Shown: positions 5,809 through 35,575 of the stretch, in pieces | Layout of the letters: each line of letters begins with the position of its first letter | Position numbering within the stretch: the first letter of the stretch is position 1 | Source of the DNA: Deltaproteobacteria bacterium | GTDB taxonomy: Bacteria; Myxococcota_A; Polyangia; JAAYKL01 | NCBI GenBank assembly: GCA_030595125.1 | Contig: JAUVDV010000009.1 | Span: 18,954 to 82,953 of the forward strand | DNA length: 64,000 bases | Reading direction: 5' to 3' | The notes under the pieces: generated by a model | Told to the model about the DNA's origin: nothing | The model's input: the letters and a program-made list of their open reading frames with translations, nothing else | Database searches by the model: none | Translations under genes and position numbers: made by a program

Positions 5809-6373
5809 CCTCCTCCACTCCGAAGTATGCGAGCGCCTGGCGCGACATCTCTTGGAACTCCGGCGACGGATCGTGTCCGCGTGCCCACTGCGTCGCGTCG
5901 AGCAATTCGTCGGCTGTCGGTTTCAGTCGCCGCAGGTCGTCGACGTGCTTGCTGCGGGGCCCCCGGTCAATGGCGGCGTAGAACTTGAAGAAGATCTGAT
6001 CCAGCCGTCCGGCCAGATGCACGGTCAGGCCGTGATAGCGCTTCGTGATCATCCGCTTCTCGAATCCTTCTGGCAATCCGAAATCCAGAAGTTGCGTGGG
6101 TCCGGAGTTTAGCCAGTCACCTGGCAGGCCGAGTGTTGTGGCGACGTCGTCGCGTGCACGCGTTAGCTCGGATGGCAATGTCTGCGCGCTGACGAATCGG
6201 CCGTCGAGGATAAGCGCGACGATATCGATATCCTTGGTTGAGCGTGAGATGAGTCCCAGCAGCGACAAGGCGCCTCCCCCAATCGCAACGACCTCGCAGT
6301 GGAAACCGCGTGACTCCATCACCTCGCCGAGGGTCGAAAGGGCTTCTTCAAAGTTGATCATTTCATCACTCAT
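5792..6373 (-). CDS. DUF6036-type nucleotidyltransferase (AbiEii/MNT-like fold)
   Basis: VVAIGGGALSLLGLISRSTKDIDIVALI matches the GGxAL...R.T.DIDV nucleotidyltransferase signature. Confidence 0.65.
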   Translation of the reverse strand: MSDEMINFEEALSTLGEVMESRGFHCEVVAIGGGALSLLGLISRSTKDIDIVALILDGRFVSAQTLPSELTRARDDVATTLGLPGDWLNSGPTQLLDFGLPEGFEKRMITKRYHGLTVHLAGRLDQIFFKFYAAIDRGPRSKHVDDLRRLKPTADELLDATQWARGHDPSPEFQEMSRQALAYFGVEEDDVPR

Positions 6374-23110: not shown

Positions 23111-23806
23111 ATGGTTGAGAATCTCACATCTCCTGCGAGAACATCACCCTTCCGAGGAATGAGCCTCTGTCTAGCCCTTCTTTGCTGGCTTGCGTCCTGT
23201 TCCATCGTGGAGGTACTGGCGCCTCTGGACGGAGAGAATTCCGGGGATTCCGACTCCGATTCGGACACCGATACCGACACGGATATCGACACCGATTCCG
23301 ATACGGAGCCCGACCCCGACTGTCCCGAGATGCCGGACGACGCCTGCGACAATATCAGCATTGTTGGAGGTGTGAACTGCGAGAATCCGGCGTACATCGG
23401 CAGGGCCATGGTGGGGGGCGGATTGGGGATGAATGACACCCTGGTGGGGGCCTTTGACAATGACCAGGCATGTTCGGGGAACGGCGGTGACCAGTTTTAC
23501 AAGCTGTACATCCTCGCGGGTGAGACACTCATAGTCTTTCATACCGTAAATACACCTGGAGCGTATGTGCCCGTCGTCGCCGTGTTCAAGACATCAGATC
23601 CGTGCCTGGCGACGGGTTGCAACAAGCTGGTTGCTTGTGACGAGAACCTCGATGGAGACGAAACCGCCTCCATAAGCGGCTATACCTCCACCAGCAGCAG
23701 CTGGCACATCATCAAGATAGACAGCCAGGAGGACCTCACGGGTGTGGGAGATCATTCCATCAATGTGGTTCTACAATGTCTTAGTCCGGTTGATTGTGAT
23801 TGTTGA
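23111..23806 (+). CDS. (SD/TD)n-stalk lipoprotein, unknown C-terminal domain
   Basis: LALLCWLASC lipobox; SDSDSDTDTDTDIDTDSDTE stalk (start codon uncertain). Confidence 0.75.
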   Translation: MVENLTSPARTSPFRGMSLCLALLCWLASCSIVEVLAPLDGENSGDSDSDSDTDTDTDIDTDSDTEPDPDCPEMPDDACDNISIVGGVNCENPAYIGRAMVGGGLGMNDTLVGAFDNDQACSGNGGDQFYKLYILAGETLIVFHTVNTPGAYVPVVAVFKTSDPCLATGCNKLVACDENLDGDETASISGYTSTSSSWHIIKIDSQEDLTGVGDHSINVVLQCLSPVDCDC

Positions 23807-23853
23807 GCCGATTTTCGATCAACGTGACTCAATATTCGCATGGAGGTGAAACC

Positions 23854-24711
23854 ATGAATAGACTAATGCCCTTGATGTTACTTCTTGCAGCCCTGGCGAT
23901 GACGATGGTCCAGTGTATTGAAGACGGCTCCGATTCCGGGAGCGACAGCGACTCGGATAGCGACTCGGACGGCGACTCGGATTCCGACGGCGACACGGAC
24001 TCGGATACGGATTCGGACACGGACTCCGACGGCGACCTGGTCCCGCCTGCCGGGGGTTCTTCCGGCGGCAGCGGCGGCAGCTCTACCAGCTCCACGGGCA
24101 CAACAGTGACCGCCGGGAGTTTAACCTATCGGATCATCGCTACATCTTCCATAGGCGATCCCGCCAAATTCATGCTTGTCTACAGCGGGACCGAGGGCGG
24201 CGCCATGATGATGCAGAACATCGCCCAGTTCGTGGGCGCCGACTACTACGGCATGGGATCTACTATCGTCGCGATCCTCAGCGGCGACGACTACTTCTCC
24301 GACGGCACTGCCGGGGCTGCGGACGGCGTTACTGTCATTGACGATGTACGTTCCAAGTACAATGTCGACAACGACCGAACCTACCTTCTGAGTGAATCAG
24401 CCGGCACCACCTCGGGGTTGGAGATCGGGTTTCACGTCCGACAGTCCTACTTCGCGGCATTCTGGGCCAACGATGTCAACGCCCAGGACTCGCCCGGGGA
24501 GACGGCGAGCGAGCTGGGGTTCGAGCCATGGGGCAACGCCGGTCCCGGTGGAGATTTCCCCGATGCCAATGCCATAGTTCAGGCAATGGATACTGCGGGC
24601 TATCGCCTTCCCTCCGATGCTCCGTACTCCGGAACGGGCGCCTCCACGCACGGTTCTTCCGAGCAATTCATGGCGGCCATTCAGTTCTTCGATGGCAAGA
24701 GTCGTCAATAA
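23854..24711 (+). CDS. (SD/TD)n-stalk lipoprotein, alpha/beta-hydrolase-like
   Basis: LLAALAMTMVQCIEDG lipobox, SDSDSDSDGDSDSDGDTD stalk; YLLSESAGTTSG nucleophile-elbow-like motif. Confidence 0.8.
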   Translation: MNRLMPLMLLLAALAMTMVQCIEDGSDSGSDSDSDSDSDGDSDSDGDTDSDTDSDTDSDGDLVPPAGGSSGGSGGSSTSSTGTTVTAGSLTYRIIATSSIGDPAKFMLVYSGTEGGAMMMQNIAQFVGADYYGMGSTIVAILSGDDYFSDGTAGAADGVTVIDDVRSKYNVDNDRTYLLSESAGTTSGLEIGFHVRQSYFAAFWANDVNAQDSPGETASELGFEPWGNAGPGGDFPDANAIVQAMDTAGYRLPSDAPYSGTGASTHGSSEQFMAAIQFFDGKSRQ

Positions 24712-24741
24712 AGAACAATTGTTTCACGAGGAGGAAAAACC

Positions 24742-25416
24742 ATGAAGAGACTGTTGCTTATCAACCTGATCTTGACGACGCTGACAGTTGCGGTAGCAGG
24801 ATGCGACGAAGACGGGCCCGTCGATGGCTATTCGGGAGACTCGGATAGCGACTCGGATTCGGACTCCGACTCCGATTCTGATTCCGACACAGATTCGGAC
24901 GGAGACACTGACTCTGATTCCGATTCCGACACGGATTCCGATACCGACACGGACGTGACAGCCAACCCGCCCAGCTATGGTTCGGGCACCACGATGGACG
25001 TGCATGACATGGCCGACTGGGTCAACTCGCAGCGCCAGGGCTACGAGCCCCATGACAGATACTGGGGCATCCCGTTCAGCAACGACCATTTCCACGCGGT
25101 GTTCACATGGCCCATCGTGATGACCTGGGACGATGGGACGGCCGCCATCGCGCAGAACGAGGCCGACTCCATCGCCTCGGGGAACGCTCCTTCTCTCACG
25201 TCGGTGGAAGGCGGAATCATCTACATAAGCGGCCCGTGCACCTCTCCCCATATGGTGCACACGAGCGAGGGGACGATGAGCAGCGTGAACCCCTTCATGA
25301 GGATGGCGGCCTACTACCACGACTTCGGCGGCGAGGGGCCGGTGCTGGACAAGATTGGCATAGGCGCCTCGGACAACGGCGACGGATCCACCGCCTGGGT
25401 GCTGGCCTTTAACTAA
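24742..25416 (+). CDS. (SD/TD)n-stalk lipoprotein, possible CAP-like domain
   Basis: LTVAVAGCDEDG lipobox, SDSDSDSDSDSDTDSDGD stalk; ADWVNSQRQG...MTWDDGTAAIAQNEADSIASG weakly CAP-like. Confidence 0.7.
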   Translation: MKRLLLINLILTTLTVAVAGCDEDGPVDGYSGDSDSDSDSDSDSDSDSDTDSDGDTDSDSDSDTDSDTDTDVTANPPSYGSGTTMDVHDMADWVNSQRQGYEPHDRYWGIPFSNDHFHAVFTWPIVMTWDDGTAAIAQNEADSIASGNAPSLTSVEGGIIYISGPCTSPHMVHTSEGTMSSVNPFMRMAAYYHDFGGEGPVLDKIGIGASDNGDGSTAWVLAFN

Positions 25417-26730: not shown

Positions 26731-26876
26731 GAAGCCTCCTTGTGCAAACCCAGTGCGATCAATATCGAGTTTCGGATGTCCCGGCAGCACTTATCTGCCT
26801 GGACAGAGGTAACGTGCGGAGAATTCTTTTTTGTGGCATTCTAAAACTATCTTAATGAAAAACAGGAGTGTTGAGT

Positions 26877-28538
26877 ATGCGTTATTCCTTGATGGTGTTT
26901 CTTGCGGTCGCTGTCCTGGCCAATTTTGGGTGTGAGCCGGTAAGGGTTGCCCCCAATCCAGGGGATTCGGACTCGGATTCGGATACGGATACCGACACCG
27001 ATACGGACGCTGATAGTGACACCGATTCCGACGTGGACACCGACACCGAGTACACCGGGCCGGCGATCCCCGAGACCTGCGCGGACGCAGCCCAGATCCT
27101 CACGTCTGTCGGTTGCGAATTCTACCCCGTGGATCTCAACAATATCGGCTCTGCCGATGGAGCTCCCTATGCGGTGGTGGTCTCCAACCCCCAGGAACTG
27201 GACTCGGGCTCTGACGCTCACGTCATAATCGAAGACATGCGAGGGGCGGGCAACACTCTGAGGACCGTGCCGGGCATGGATGTAGTTCTCGCTCCGGGGG
27301 ATCTCCACATCTTCGAATTGACCTGCACTTCCGGTTGCCCCGAGCAGTCGACCCAGATAGAGGGCTCGGGCCTCGCGGCCTTATCCGCGTTTCGAATCAC
27401 GTCGGACGTTCCGGTGCTCGCCTACCAGTGGAACCCCTATGGAGAGGGGCTCGCCACCACTGACGCGTCTTTGCTGATACCGTCCACGAGTCTGGCGGAA
27501 GAATACATCGGCGCCGCGTGGAACAACGGGCCCCCCAGCACCACGGAGAAGGCCCAGCTGACGGTGGTGGGTCTCGAGGACGGCACTCAGGTTTTCTTTA
27601 CCCCGACGGTGGCAACCGCTGCCGGCACAGGGGTTCCGGCCATGACGGCGGGCGTCGAGTCAGCCCCGGTGAACATCAACCGATTCGATGCGGCCCAGAT
27701 CGTACCGGCCGTGATGGACCAGATGCTGACGGGAACCTATATCAGGGCAACCAAGCCCATCGCGGTGTTCGGCGGCCACTCCTGTGCGATGGTGCCTGAT
27801 CCCAGTTACTACGCCTGCGACCATGTTGAGGAGCAGCTCCTTCCACTGGTCGCGTGGGGCACGGAGACTGTCCTTGCGCGCCACGAGGTGCGGGCCGGAG
27901 TGACGGCGGACGTGGACCAGGCGCTCTGGCGAATCATCGCCGGCGCGGATGACATGACCATCACCTTCGATCCGCCGGTCGACGGGGTAGGAGCCTCGTA
28001 CAGCTTTGTGACTCAGGGGGAGATGCTCCAGTTCATGAGTCCAATCGACCACTTTGCCACCGCGATCCTCGACAATCCGCCGGATCCGAGCGAGCCGGAG
28101 GCGCCCTTCTTTGCTATCCAGATCATGACCGGAAGATGGTACGTGGGCGGCACGGCATACGAATGGGGAGATCCCATGATGCTTCTGTCCCCACCCGCAG
28201 GCCAATATCTTGATCGCTATGTTTTCAACACCGACAACCAGTTCGACTTCAGCTACGACGGCATCATCATCGTGAGGCCGACTGGGGTAGCGGTGGATCT
28301 GGATTGCCTCGGCGTCATTGCCGATGCGGAGTTCCAGCAGGTGGGGTCATCCGACTGGGAGGTCGCCAGAGTAGATATCGACAATCCGACAGGAGTGCCC
28401 GGATGTGTGGACGGCGCTCATCGCATCGAGTCGGAGGAGCCGTTCGGCCTTTCGGTGGTGGGAGAGGACTTCGCCAACTCATACGGCTACCTCGGCGGCG
28501 TAGGCGTACGTGCCATCAACCCGATCATCATAGAGTAA
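26877..28538 (+). CDS. (SD/TD)n-stalk protein with IgGFc-binding-protein-like domain
   Basis: SDSDSDTDTDTDTDADSDTDSDVDTD stalk; domain with PYAVVVSNPQ, PVLAYQWNPYG, KPIAVFGGHSCAMVP, CDHVEEQLLPLVAWGTE typical of bacterial IgGFc-binding N-terminal domains. Confidence 0.8.
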   Translation: MRYSLMVFLAVAVLANFGCEPVRVAPNPGDSDSDSDTDTDTDTDADSDTDSDVDTDTEYTGPAIPETCADAAQILTSVGCEFYPVDLNNIGSADGAPYAVVVSNPQELDSGSDAHVIIEDMRGAGNTLRTVPGMDVVLAPGDLHIFELTCTSGCPEQSTQIEGSGLAALSAFRITSDVPVLAYQWNPYGEGLATTDASLLIPSTSLAEEYIGAAWNNGPPSTTEKAQLTVVGLEDGTQVFFTPTVATAAGTGVPAMTAGVESAPVNINRFDAAQIVPAVMDQMLTGTYIRATKPIAVFGGHSCAMVPDPSYYACDHVEEQLLPLVAWGTETVLARHEVRAGVTADVDQALWRIIAGADDMTITFDPPVDGVGASYSFVTQGEMLQFMSPIDHFATAILDNPPDPSEPEAPFFAIQIMTGRWYVGGTAYEWGDPMMLLSPPAGQYLDRYVFNTDNQFDFSYDGIIIVRPTGVAVDLDCLGVIADAEFQQVGSSDWEVARVDIDNPTGVPGCVDGAHRIESEEPFGLSVVGEDFANSYGYLGGVGVRAINPIIIE

Positions 28539-29264: not shown

Positions 29265-30947
29265 ATGCTAACCTTCAGTAAAAATCCACAGGTCGCCGAG
29301 CAGCAGATGCAGGCGGTAATTTTTTACCTCACAACCTTCGGATACATCGACGGTGACTTCGACGAATCGGAGCGCGTATTCGTGTCCAACTACATCCGAA
29401 AGCTGGTCATTCATCGGGTGGACGTCGGGATGCCCGATGCGGACGAGAAACTGCGGGCCGAGCTCATCGAAAAGTTCACCAGGCATTTTCACGAAGAGTT
29501 CGAGCGCATCGATCAACGTATCAAGGACCTCTTCACCGAGGCGGTTTCCAGCGACGAGGATCAGAACTCGTTTGTGGAATCGAGGCTCAAACTGCGCTGC
29601 TTCGAGATCTTTCAGAGCTTCGACAAGGGTGGGCAGGAAGCCCTCATGGACATCGTCGACGAGCTCCTGATGGCCGACGGCGTCGCCCACCCGGCGGAGG
29701 TGAAATTCAGGGCCGAGTTGTCGGCGTTGCTCGAGTCCGATCTGGGGATTGTGCTGGTGGACGAGGGAGAGAAACCTCCCGTCAGCGTGACGGAGACAGT
29801 CGAGCTGGTGCCCGTGCAGGCCACGCATCCGTTCTTCGATCAATTCGAGCATCATTACTCCGGCAATCTGGAGACACTTCAAAAACAGATCGATGCCGAT
29901 GTCGGGCTTCTGGAAAAGACGATGAACATGTTTGCCGAACAGAGGGTCAGTGGCGCCGGCAAGCTGAACGGCGTGCAGAAGGTGGGCGAACTGGCGGGGC
30001 AGGAGTCGTTCCTCGACGGGCACGTTTACGTTGTGCCGCCCAGGCCGGGGCGCACCTACGATCTGACGGTGGTTGGAGATCTTCACGGTTGCTACAGTTG
30101 CCTCAAGTCGGTGGTCATGCAGTCGCATTTCTTCGAGAAGGTCAACGCGTTCAAGGAAGATCCGGAAAACAACCCCGAGCCCAAGTTGATCTTCCTGGGC
30201 GACTACATCGACAGGGGCATGTTCAGCCTCAACGGTGTGCTGCGTTCGGTCATGCAGATCGCCACCACGGCCCCCGGTCACGTTTACCTTCTTCGGGGGA
30301 ATCACGAATACTACATCGAGTACAATGGACAGGTGTTCGGAGGCGTGAGGCCCGCAGAGGCGATCAACACCCTCAAACCTTTCGTGTCCGAAGACATTTT
30401 CAGACACTACATCAAGTTCTTCGAGGACATGCCCAACATGTTGCTCTTCGGTGAAACACTGTTTGTGCATGGCGGGATCCCCAGAGATCTGTTGCTAAAG
30501 GAGCGCTACAAGGATTTATCTAGTCTCAACGATCCGGATATTCGATTTCAGATGATGTGGAGTGATCCGAGCACCGCCGACGTGATACCCGCAGAGCTTC
30601 AGGAGCAATCGTCCAGATTCCCCTTCGGACGGTTACAGGCGGCGGCGTTCCTGCAGCGTATCGGTTGCCACACCCTGGTTCGCGGTCACGAGAAAGTAAA
30701 TTCGGGGTTCGTTCGCACATACGACGACGAGAACCTGCTGTTGATGACGCTCTTCTCCGCCGGTGGCGAGAACAACGGGGATCTTCCCGCCAATTCGGGA
30801 TACCGGAAGGTGACGCCCAAGGCGCTGACCATGATAGTCAAGGACGGGGAAGTGAAGGTCTCTCCCTGGGAGATCGATTATCAGATGTACAACGACCCGG
30901 AGCGCAATCGTTTTTTCAAAGTATCCCCGACAATCAAACACACATAA
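29265..30947 (+). CDS. TerB-like domain fused to PPP-family Ser/Thr phosphatase
   Basis: GDLHGCYSC, FLGDYIDRG, LLRGNHEYY PPP motifs; N-terminal all-helical FGYIDGDFDESERVFVSNYI TerB-like. Confidence 0.85.
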   Translation: MLTFSKNPQVAEQQMQAVIFYLTTFGYIDGDFDESERVFVSNYIRKLVIHRVDVGMPDADEKLRAELIEKFTRHFHEEFERIDQRIKDLFTEAVSSDEDQNSFVESRLKLRCFEIFQSFDKGGQEALMDIVDELLMADGVAHPAEVKFRAELSALLESDLGIVLVDEGEKPPVSVTETVELVPVQATHPFFDQFEHHYSGNLETLQKQIDADVGLLEKTMNMFAEQRVSGAGKLNGVQKVGELAGQESFLDGHVYVVPPRPGRTYDLTVVGDLHGCYSCLKSVVMQSHFFEKVNAFKEDPENNPEPKLIFLGDYIDRGMFSLNGVLRSVMQIATTAPGHVYLLRGNHEYYIEYNGQVFGGVRPAEAINTLKPFVSEDIFRHYIKFFEDMPNMLLFGETLFVHGGIPRDLLLKERYKDLSSLNDPDIRFQMMWSDPSTADVIPAELQEQSSRFPFGRLQAAAFLQRIGCHTLVRGHEKVNSGFVRTYDDENLLLMTLFSAGGENNGDLPANSGYRKVTPKALTMIVKDGEVKVSPWEIDYQMYNDPERNRFFKVSPTIKHT

Positions 30948-31139: not shown

Positions 31140-32612
31140 ATGAAAAATTCCAAAACCTTAATGCTGATGATTCTCTTGTTCGCGGCATCGCTCGTGGTTA
31201 TCAACGCATGCGAAGACGAAGAGAAAGACCCGGACGCCGGTGAAGACGCCTCGGTAGATGCATCCGACGACGATTCCGGAACCCCCGACGGGTTTACGTG
31301 TCTCGAGTGTCACATCGACGAGGACCTGCTGATTGCCGACCTGGAGGCGGACCCACTCCCGGAACCCGAGGAGCCGGAACCCGAGGGAGAGGGGTGAGCG
31401 GGAGAGCTTCCTCCGTTGGAGGACTGGGAGAAGGTAACAATTGACGAAGAGTTCCTCGCCGACAGGCATTTTGTGGAGTTCTTCAACTCTGATTGCAAGG
31501 CATGTCACGGCGGCGTGGAGCCGGCCCTCACGCGGGCGGAGGCGCACGTCGGGCTGACAGCGGCGCCCTCGTATCCCGACGGTCAACTCTGCACCAATTG
31601 TCACGGCCAGGAAGTCGATGACTACCACACATCGCTCCATTTCGAGAACCGGGGCCTCTACGACCTTCAACACGGGGTTGTGGCGCAGCGCGCGAACCCG
31701 GAGATGATGGCGGAACTGGAAGAGGGAATAACAAACCACTGCACCGGTTGCCACATCAAGGCCTGCGGCGATTGTCACATATCGCGGCCTCACCTGAACG
31801 AGAAGGGTTTCGTCAGCGGGCATGTCTTTTTCAAGACGCCCAAGGCAACAAAAAATTGCACCGGGTGTCACGGCGCTCGTGTGGAAAAAGAGATGCTGGC
31901 CAAGGGAGGCGAGGACATCGAGGGCAATGCCGTCGTCGTCACCGCGGACGTCCACTGGAACCCAAACGCCATGACCTGCGACGCGTGTCACTCGGGGCAT
32001 GGAGATCAATCCGGCATTTACCATCGCTACGACGTCAAGGATGCGGCCACGTGCGAAGGTTGCCATCCGGGCGTCAACACGGACACGTCCAACGCAATGC
32101 ACGCCACCCACGCGAACCCGGCGGGAGACAACCCGTTGCTTCAGTGCCATGTCTGTCACTCGCAGCCGTACAACAACTGCAGAAGCTGCCATGTTCTCAT
32201 CAACGAGGATGAACAGAAGACATTTGACTGCGCGTCAAGCTGGTTCCAGTTCAAGATTGGGAAGAATTACCTCAAGAGCGCGAGGCGACCATACGATTAC
32301 GTAGTGGTCCGCCATGTCCCGGTGGATCCGGATACCTTCGCCTACTATGGGGATGACATTCTCTCCAACTTCGACGTTGCGCCCACGTGGAAATATGCTA
32401 CTCCCCACAACGTGATCAGGCAGATCAAATTGCCCGGAGACGACGTGGCCGACTCTCCGCCACAGGCGAGGAGCTGCAATTCATGTCACGGGCACGAGGA
32501 GTTGTTCCTCGGCTCCGGGGACCTGGAGCCCAACGAGGTTGCGGCAAACGCGTCGGTCGTTGTCACCGATATACCGCAGACACTGCCGGACGGAGGTCCG
32601 GATGGGGGCTGA
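31140..32612 (+). CDS. Multihaem c-type cytochrome lipoprotein with in-frame TGA codon at 31395-31397
   Basis: ORFs 31140-31397 and 31416-32612 lie in the same frame separated only by TGA; signal peptide/lipobox and CLECH upstream, ten CxxCH downstream. Confidence 0.7.
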
Positions 32613-32703: not shown

Positions 32704-33822
32704 ATGGAAAAGACTAAACTTTTGCTTCTTTTGTTATCGGCCTTCCTGGTCTTCGGCGCGGTAGCATGCAGCGACGACGATGACGTCGAGACGGATGGCG
32801 GAACAGACACTGACACAGACACTGATACCGATACGGATACTGACACTGACACAGACACCGACACCGATACTGATACTGACACTGATACCGACACCGATGC
32901 AGAAGCCGACCGCATCGATGAGATTTTTGATGCACTGGATGGATACGTTGATGACGATACCGTCAAGCCGATAATTAGTGCACAGGATGTTTACGATAAC
33001 ATTGTTGTGCCTGTAGACACCGACTACCAGCTCATCGACGTGAGGCCTACGGCTCATTACGACGGCGGGCACGTGGCCGGCACACTCAATCTTCCATTCG
33101 GCGCCGACTGGGCGACCGACACAGTCCTGGATCAGGTCGACGACTCAAAGACGATCATCGTGATCTGTCACACGGGTCACAAGGCCTCCATGATCACCGT
33201 CTACCTTCGTCTAATGGGCTATGACGCCTTTGCGATGGCTTACGGAATGATGGCCTGGACCACAGACCTTTCCGTGATCGGCCTCGCGGGGACGTACTGC
33301 TCCTCGACCACCATGCCCCATGATTATGCAACGGTTACAGATGCCGTAACGCCTGCAACAGACAATGATATCCCCGAGATCATGAGCGCCCTTACCGGCA
33401 ACGATCTCATGATGGACCTCTTCGACGGATATATGTCTGCCCTGGGAACCGATTCTCCGGTCATCACGCCCGGCGACTACTACGACAATGTATTGGTACC
33501 AGTTGATGACTCCTACTTCCTGATTGATGTACGTTCGGCAGATCATTTCGATGATCATATCGTGAATGCGATCAACATTCCTTACGGCACGTGGAACGCC
33601 AAGACCATCATGGAGATGATTCCCGATGACAAGACGATCATCACCCATTGTTACACCGGCCACACCGCGTCGCAGACGGCTGCTATCCTCAACCTGCTGG
33701 GATACGAGGCCTACGCAATGGCCTACAGCATGATGGGATGGACCTCCGTCACCGACGAAATCGGAATAACGACTATCCTCGATTGCAGCACCGTTACGGA
33801 TAAGCCCGTCGAAACCACCTAG
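32704..33822 (+). CDS. (TD)n-stalk lipoprotein with tandem rhodanese domains
   Basis: LVFGAVACSDDDD lipobox, TDTDTDTD stalk, two copies of QLIDVRPTAHYDGGHVAGTLNLPFG / FLIDVRSADHFDDHIVNAINIPYG and VICHTGHKAS / ITHCYTGHTAS. Confidence 0.92.
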   Translation: MEKTKLLLLLLSAFLVFGAVACSDDDDVETDGGTDTDTDTDTDTDTDTDTDTDTDTDTDTDTDTDAEADRIDEIFDALDGYVDDDTVKPIISAQDVYDNIVVPVDTDYQLIDVRPTAHYDGGHVAGTLNLPFGADWATDTVLDQVDDSKTIIVICHTGHKASMITVYLRLMGYDAFAMAYGMMAWTTDLSVIGLAGTYCSSTTMPHDYATVTDAVTPATDNDIPEIMSALTGNDLMMDLFDGYMSALGTDSPVITPGDYYDNVLVPVDDSYFLIDVRSADHFDDHIVNAINIPYGTWNAKTIMEMIPDDKTIITHCYTGHTASQTAAILNLLGYEAYAMAYSMMGWTSVTDEIGITTILDCSTVTDKPVETT

Positions 33823-33837: not shown

Positions 33838-34440
33838 ATGCTCATGCGCTTTCCGGTTTTTTCTATTGTGCTTTCGCTGGCAGTCGGGTTGTTATCTGTG
33901 GCCTGTCTGGACGTCGCGAACGACTCGGACCACCAGGATCAGGACGCCGGTGAGGGTTGCCTCGCCTGTCACCACACTGGTGATGATTATGGCACCTGTG
34001 CCGACTGCCACGGGGCTCACGGCGATAGCCAGGCGCATGAGAAGCACCTTATGGCCGAGCTGTGGGGGCAACCGGTGTCATGCGAAGATTGTCATCGGGT
34101 GCCTCTCAGCTTGTTTGAGGGAGATCACTTCAACTCAACCGTGGACGTGGTTTTCGCGGAGGGCAGCCTCGCACGAACCGGGGACCTGGAGCCCGCGTGG
34201 AACGGAATGCGTTGTACTAACGTATATTGCCACGGTGCCGGTCTGACCGGCGGCACGTATACGGAGCCCGCCTGGCAGGGTGAGAAGGAGGAGGGGATCG
34301 TCTGTGGGGATTGCCACGGGATCCCACCCCTCGCGCCCCACACCGACGAGACCGGGTGCTCGTCCTGTCACGCCACTGCGTACACCGATGCCGGTACCCT
34401 CGACTTCGATATGCACCTGAATGGTGTGGTTGAGTTCTAG
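33838..34440 (+). CDS. CxxCH/CxxxxCH cytochrome-type lipoprotein
   Basis: CLACH, CADCH, CEDCH, CTNVYCH (CxxxxCH), CGDCH, CSSCH. Confidence 0.85.
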   Translation: MLMRFPVFSIVLSLAVGLLSVACLDVANDSDHQDQDAGEGCLACHHTGDDYGTCADCHGAHGDSQAHEKHLMAELWGQPVSCEDCHRVPLSLFEGDHFNSTVDVVFAEGSLARTGDLEPAWNGMRCTNVYCHGAGLTGGTYTEPAWQGEKEEGIVCGDCHGIPPLAPHTDETGCSSCHATAYTDAGTLDFDMHLNGVVEF

Positions 34441-34477: not shown

Positions 34478-35575
34478 TTAATTTCCTACGAGGATCTCAT
34501 CCCACCAACCCTGGGAAGAGTCGAAGTTGTAGAAGTCCAGACGACCAAGGCTGGAGACGCTGGTCGATCTGAAAACCCGCCCGGTGGCGATGGATGTGCC
34601 GTTGATATGGACGTCGAACGTGTGGCTCGACCAGTTGATGTTCAATAACTCTATATGATACCAGGTGTTAGCCGAATAGGACATGAGATCCGTCGAGGTC
34701 GCCGATGACGCAACGGCGCGGATGTTGCCGTCATCCTTGAAGTACAGCATCACCATCTGGTTGGTAAGTTCCGGGGTTCCCGGACCGTGCACCACAAAGT
34801 AGGTGTCGGATGATGAGGTCGAACCGGACCTCCCCCAGAACGAAATGGTGGAGGGAGTGAGGCTCGAGAAGGTGTGGTAGAGGCCGTCATAGTGGCCGCC
34901 GGATCCACCGCTGATGCTGAGGCTGTACGTGGTCGAGTCCGCCGCGGTGGCGGTTGTGACGGAGATGGAGTACCCGCCTCCTCCGGTAGACCACCCAACG
35001 TAGTCGCCGTCTTCCCAGTCTTCAAAGAAAATAACCGAGCCCACGCAAGTGCCGGAGACGCACGTCTCTCCCGCCGTGGTGCAGTCTTCGCAGGTGTCCC
35101 CGCAGTGCAAATCGGAATTACACGCGATGCATTCATCGGTATCGCACCACATTGCGACGCCGCACGGAGTGTCGGTGTATGGATAATCACACGCCCCTTC
35201 GTCACACGTTCCGGTGTCGTCGTATTCCCGCAGTGTGTCATCATCAACGCAATAATCCGGGTCCGGCGAATCGCAGACCACGCCGTCGCATGGATCAGAT
35301 CCAGTATCGGAATCGGTATCTGAGTCGGTATCGGAATCGGTATCTGAGTCGGTATCCGAATCGCTGTCGGTATCGGAATCGGTATCTGAATCGGTATCTG
35401 AGTCGGTATCCGAATCGCTGTCGGTATCGGAATCGCTGTCCGACCCGGGGTTGGTGTCAATGCTGGTATTCGCGCATCCGCTAAATAGAAATAGTGTCGC
35501 CAGTAAGAAGACGATCGCGTATTTATCGGCGCTAATAGTGTCACTCAAGTTGGCGATTTGACCGGGATTTTTCAT
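34478..35575 (-). CDS. (SD/TD)n-stalk lipoprotein with LamG/concanavalin-like domain
   Basis: LFLFSGCANTS lipobox, SDSDTDSDSDTDSDTD stalk; FFEDWEDGDYVGWST...WYHIELLNINWSSHTFDVHING. Confidence 0.8.
   Translation of the reverse strand: MKNPGQIANLSDTISADKYAIVFLLATLFLFSGCANTSIDTNPGSDSDSDTDSDSDTDSDTDSDTDSDTDSDSDTDSDTDSDTDSDTDSDTGSDPCDGVVCDSPDPDYCVDDDTLREYDDTGTCDEGACDYPYTDTPCGVAMWCDTDECIACNSDLHCGDTCEDCTTAGETCVSGTCVGSVIFFEDWEDGDYVGWSTGGGGYSISVTTATAADSTTYSLSISGGSGGHYDGLYHTFSSLTPSTISFWGRSGSTSSSDTYFVVHGPGTPELTNQMVMLYFKDDGNIRAVASSATSTDLMSYSANTWYHIELLNINWSSHTFDVHINGTSIATGRVFRSTSVSSLGRLDFYNFDSSQGWWDEILVGN
35302..35446 (-). repeat. Hexanucleotide tract encoding SD/TD stalk (approximate bounds)
   Basis: gtatcggaatcggtatctgagtcggtatcc... 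Confidence 0.85.

Follow-up and report, generated by a model that had tools for sequence, protein, structure and literature searches.

A conserved in-frame TGA predicts a selenocysteine-containing multihaem cytochrome linked to exported rhodaneses

Two open reading frames in the window, the 64,000-nucleotide stretch of DNA analysed here, lie at 31140-31397 and 31416-32612 in one and the same frame and are separated solely by the TGA at 31395-31397; re-reading of the sequence bears out the original prediction in this respect. Read through on the forward strand (31140..32612), they would give a protein of 490 residues with the TGA at position 86 (termed Sec86 in the following), 11 CxxCH motifs and a TGA terminator at 32610-32612. 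The N-terminus is a lipoprotein signal peptide (31140..31211, forward strand) with lipobox Cys24, whose residues 2-23 are helical in the structure model. Haem motif 1 (CLECH, residues 54-58, 31299..31313, forward strand) precedes the putative selenocysteine codon (31395..31397, forward strand) and ten CxxCH motifs come after it, which places Sec86 between haem 1 and haem 2, a distribution already seen in the original prediction and now complemented by the located lipobox. Many CxxCH motifs together with an export signal, as well as a match to Pfam Cytochrome_C7 (1.3e-10), characterize the protein as a multihaem c-type cytochrome.

Downstream on the same strand follow an exported lipoprotein with two rhodanese domains (32704..33822; Pfam Rhodanese 5.1e-26 in two stretches, active-site loops CHTGHK and CYTGHT), which proves to be a conserved partner, and a small multihaem c-type cytochrome (33838..34440), the third gene in this run, which both sister species share. 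Directly upstream lies a metallophosphoesterase with an N-terminal TerB-like domain (29265-30947), likewise kept in the sister species. Three further ORFs of the window (23111-25416, 26868-28538 and 34478-35575) are lipoprotein-like with long (Ser/Thr-Asp)n repeats past the lipobox, and the rhodanese lipoprotein carries such a repeat as well. The segment 35755-40532 holds a CoA-enzyme activase with two activase domains, followed by an ORF of 500 residues with no NCBIfam match.

Within the family alignment all 11 CxxCH motifs and Sec86 are invariant, ten additional histidines are universal (110, 136, 167, 228, 272, 287, 321, 324, 392 and 423) and His200 is conserved to 87%. The TGA had been described as lying in a low-complexity Glu/Pro linker; the linker is indeed variable, but the flanks of the Sec position (GxG-U-[GA]-G...P..W) rank with the best-conserved residues of the protein. 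Structure prediction gave a mediocre model (pLDDT 68.7), built without haems and weak around the Sec loop, with Sec86 at the edge of a low-confidence segment. A Foldseek search of the predicted structure against the PDB matched no solved fold, a PDB sequence profile search returned generic multihaem similarity only, and PHROGs gave no match.

The same in-frame TGA is found in two sister species (90% identity) and in a further genome of the same class (37%). Two peptide patterns, of which [KR]NCT[GA]CHG lies far from the TGA site, were run against the genome collection and yielded 57 loci, mainly from Chloroflexota but also from Myxococcota, Krumholzibacteriota and Calditrichota, thus from at least four phyla. 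The site itself was read in a set of 57 sequences, namely the own genome, the two sisters and 54 entries comprising the same-class genome and other collection loci; one gene is entered twice, as L074 and L079, leaving 56 distinct sequences, and L042 and L065 were excluded because their contigs begin too near or past the site (L042 still shows the TGA). The original prediction had proposed to see which residue homologues have at this position, and the answer is TGA itself in all 57, never TAA or TAG. TGA is also present in further Anaerolineae loci, in genome G186 and in a very divergent relative within the window's class, where a strong match occurs in 5 of 318 genomes, each with TGA. Among Anaerolineae, 78 of 396 genomes contain the protein, with an in-frame TGA for most matches and at the same column in those viewed; some matches list extra TAA/TAG or a second TGA. 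Past the internal TGA, dN/dS among the three sister species is 0.09-0.14. On this comparative evidence the two frames appear as one continuous protein under purifying selection, in which a UGA interrupts an otherwise continuous, selected reading frame, as expected of a selenoprotein gene.

Behind the TGA the sequence gcgggagagct leads into TCCTCC-GTT-GGAGGA (31409..31423, forward strand), a bSECIS-type hairpin located just 3′ of the UGA with the loop starting 18 nt past it and a G opening the apical loop. The original prediction had recognized this element and its geometry; taken alone, however, the window hairpin does not exceed chance, since the single-sequence RNA fold gives z = 0.19 and 11.4% of control codons in the family genes are followed at comparable distance by a stem of 6 bp or more. 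Across the family, in contrast, every stem reaches at least 6 bp, and the loop start is exactly 18 nt past the TGA in 56 of 57 sequences, with G first likewise in 56 of 57. In a 7-bp model of the 56 distinct sequences, 94.4% of cells are paired against 84.2% in shuffles, and two-sided changes occur in 35 cells against 11.3 ± 2.1; sliding the partner by one base makes the pairing signal collapse. Column pair 21-35 is occupied by GC, GU, AU, UA and CG with zero mismatch, and pair 22-34 by GC (32) and CG (22). Covariation of these stem pairs also accounts for an oddity at the protein level, the alternation of A-PLE-P with P-PLE-V/A/G/D.

Synonymous codons within the hairpin are fixed (CCG 55/57, TTG 50/50, GAG 56/56, against a background of 38, 21 and 39%, respectively) and GCT/CCT are likewise frozen, but codon choice for the Glu, Lys and Val that follow shows normal variation; because codon-fixation probabilities ignore relatedness, this within-gene contrast is the safer evidence. 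G186 has different residues and bases (PEVPA) and nevertheless forms a stem of 8 bp whose loop begins at +18. In L073 from Calditrichota (around 6100-6200) the hairpin is shifted by 4 nt and has a longer loop, the predicted fold still placing G first, which in this fold model represents a register change of the SECIS. An Rfam search for a known SECIS family gave no match. The comparisons show an RNA hairpin under selection, and the retention of TGA and hairpin in every relative read at the site is far beyond chance.

The original prediction had called for a genome search for selA, selB, selC and selD, and selA, selB, selD and tRNA-Sec with anticodon tca were all found in the own genome (a 95% complete MAG), the set expected for a selenoprotein. 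Its selD (C43:6631-7551, L142) also has an in-frame TGA, at GSG-U-ASK, and serves as an internal control. tRNA-Sec scores above cut-off in 52 of 53 carriers. Within Anaerolineae it is present in 66 of 78 carriers and 228 of 318 other genomes (p = 0.02), a co-occurrence that is weak evidence because the background is already high. Twelve full-length carriers, G337 included, have no detected tRNA-Sec; nine of them have SelB above cut-off, G488 gives a weak, partial SelB match, and in G525 and G726 neither tRNA-Sec nor SelB rises above cut-off, the SelB scores being of ordinary elongation-factor size. The missing machinery in these last three genomes likely reflects MAG gaps.

Alternatives to selenocysteine had been listed with the original prediction and fare poorly against these data. 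A nonsense pseudogene or a consensus error would be the obvious reading of an isolated in-frame stop first noticed in a single assembly; both are excluded for practical purposes, as the TGA recurs in the sister species and across at least four phyla without ever being replaced by TAA or TAG, and dN/dS past it is 0.09-0.14. Termination at the TGA with reinitiation at TTG 31416 could draw on the purine-rich GGGAGAG ahead of that codon, but its product would lack a signal peptide whereas c-type haem attachment requires export, some relatives have GCG, which is no start, or else GTG or ATG in place of the TTG, and the residues from TGA to TTG are conserved; we regard it as very improbable. A further alternative, equally improbable, is selenium-independent readthrough with insertion of Trp or another near-cognate residue, conceivable in that the inserted residue is predicted from the genes. 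It leaves unaccounted for a bSECIS-type hairpin of fixed geometry and covariation that decays once the UGA is gone, as well as the Sec machinery of the carriers. The gene moreover terminates at TGA in all three sister species, and the terminator at 32610-32612 implies that TGA is also a normal stop here. The conserved TGA, the covarying hairpin, the Sec machinery and the purifying selection past the TGA support the selenocysteine reading instead, and that TGA 31395-31397 is real and encodes selenocysteine is, by sequence comparison, almost certain.

Profile searches for homologues with Cys at the Sec position, a usual though not required companion of a selenoprotein, found none. Relatives that have lost Sec carry Leu (L124), His (L125) or a degraded segment (the L126 paralogue and L138) instead; these losses map to three or more separate branches of the tree, so that Sec disappeared at least three times, and never to Cys. 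The hairpins of these relatives retain at most 4 contiguous bp, and G415, which harbors the Leu variant, retains tRNA-Sec. Contig C10 of G622 holds a Sec copy and, within a few kb of it, a paralogue without Sec (L126/L155), the latter an ORF of up to 863 residues with 21 CxxCH that adjoins a gene for an FeS protein and one for a membrane protein. L127 and L128 (G482 and G599) are distant cytochrome relatives without the Sec segment and possibly form an outgroup for the origin of Sec. The original prediction had taken the lack of an obvious Cys homologue as speaking against a functional Sec. The lack itself is borne out, but it is no argument against Sec, because the predicted Geobacter selenocytochrome ExtKL was also without non-Sec homologues at its first description (PMC1914089) and because the non-Sec relatives found here have lost motif and hairpin.

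An exported rhodanese protein, usually with several domains, is encoded in 55 of the 57 collection loci, downstream in 49 and upstream in 6; the two loci without it are truncated contigs. The downstream cases include L078 (3962-6370), where a single ORF of 803 residues combines the selenocytochrome with two C-terminal rhodanese domains. The three single-copy Sec-lost relatives have no rhodanese on contig stretches of 8-15 kb (Fisher p = 3e-4 against the collection loci, relatedness ignored), and FeS- and membrane-subunit-like neighbours persist in at least two of the three, G415 and G630. In G622 a rhodanese gene is near the Sec copy and the FeS gene beside the Sec-lost copy; the Anaerolineae locus L156 has the TGA but no rhodanese downstream. 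Further frequent neighbours among the collection loci are LysR (28, mostly divergent), 4Fe-4S (23), NrfD (22) and another multihaem cytochrome (33). Comparative evidence thus indicates a near-obligate linkage of the cytochrome to an exported multi-rhodanese lipoprotein.

The nearest precedent is ExtKL (NF040886; GSU2937-2936), predicted in PMC1914089 and discussed in PMC5877670 and PMC6148476, likewise an exported c-type cytochrome with predicted Sec and clustered with a rhodanese-like lipoprotein, ExtH. ExtKL is pentahaem with all five haems before the Sec (PMC1914089), whereas the present family has 10-12 haems and its Sec right after haem 1; the window protein gives no match to NF040886, also when reading through stops, and identity with ExtKL was therefore rejected. 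The selenoprotein form of the octahaem tetrathionate reductase family cytochromes (TIGR04315, PMC13188914) is also a multihaem protein with Sec, but neither the window protein (E up to 0.1) nor eight members scanned singly (E up to 0.01) match this model. ExtM/ExtN and DmsE-type decahaem cytochromes (NF040943, NF040967, TIGR03508) share the generic multihaem CxxCH layout and weak local similarity; their scores are far under the curated cut-offs, and they are not described as selenoproteins in the cited sources. With SelD, FdhA and other SECIS-dependent selenoproteins the family has in common the UGA, the 3′ hairpin with G at the loop start, SelA/B/D and tRNA-Sec. Beyond generic cytochrome domains no NCBIfam (20.0) or Pfam model exists for the protein. 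Among the 119 prokaryotic selenoprotein families inventoried in 2026 (PMC13188914), the cytochromes named are ExtKL and the octahaem family, and the present family is not recognizable in that list; prior mention elsewhere is possible. Our verdict from the sequences is a putative new and widespread selenoprotein family.

Taken as a whole, we consider it likely that this gene specifies an exported, lipid-anchored 11-haem c-type cytochrome with Sec inserted at UGA 31395-31397 and an exported rhodanese as its linked partner. SelB and tRNA-Sec would decode the UGA by means of the hairpin 12-26 nt downstream. On rhodaneses, sulfane sulfur is held as a Cys persulfide, for which a selenol adjacent in sequence to haem 1 is a well-suited acceptor or donor, and haems are able to give or accept electrons; we therefore favour a redox unit of the polysulfide/thiosulfate type. 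The selenol could exchange sulfane sulfur with the rhodanese Cys persulfide via an Se-S intermediate while the haem chain moves the electrons, so that cytochrome and rhodanese would jointly carry out redox chemistry on polysulfide/thiosulfate (or related chalcogen compounds) in the periplasm; in many genomes the adjacent 4Fe-4S/NrfD/multihaem cytochrome module would link the pair to the quinone pool. Gene linkage suggests this sulfur relay tentatively, at somewhat less than even chances; its more specific form, in which tandem rhodaneses pass sulfane sulfur to a selenol on a multihaem wire and haem electrons reduce or form the Se-S bond, is a shade more tentative still.

The main rival, which we rate as roughly a one-in-three proposition, gives the selenoprotein the task of reducing chalcogen oxyanions or metals, or of extracellular electron transfer, in the manner of the Geobacter Ext systems, the rhodanese delivering selenium or sulfur outside the catalytic cycle. 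The extHIJKL cluster of Geobacter likewise combines a rhodanese-like lipoprotein and a predicted selenocytochrome, deletion of extI impairs selenite/tellurite reduction (PMC5877670, PMC6148476), and family members are weakly similar to ExtM/ExtN/ExtS and DmsE-type cytochromes; against this stand the failed match to the ExtKL model, the different Sec position and haem count, and the fact that no porin was recognized beside the window gene. Ten universal histidines facing eleven invariant haems suggest that one haem is possibly open or Sec-ligated, so that the invariant Sec86 might play a structural or electron-tuning role as axial ligand of the haem that has no universal distal His. This is unlikely, as His200 could serve as the eleventh ligand, the model puts the Sec at the margin of a loop predicted with low confidence and the rhodanese linkage is left unexplained.

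Selenoprotein families without Cys homologues escape methods that rely on Sec/Cys pairs, and annotation cuts such genes into two false ones; the putative selenocytochrome has no family model, although about a fifth of the Anaerolineae genomes sampled contain it, nearly always with the TGA, and several other phyla have it too. Natural Sec losses coincide with loss of the hairpin and an absent neighbouring rhodanese, which makes partner and type of chemistry directly testable. If the selenium-sulfur relay is true, many Chloroflexota and scattered members of other phyla would have a tie between respiration and the sulfur metabolism of the periplasm.
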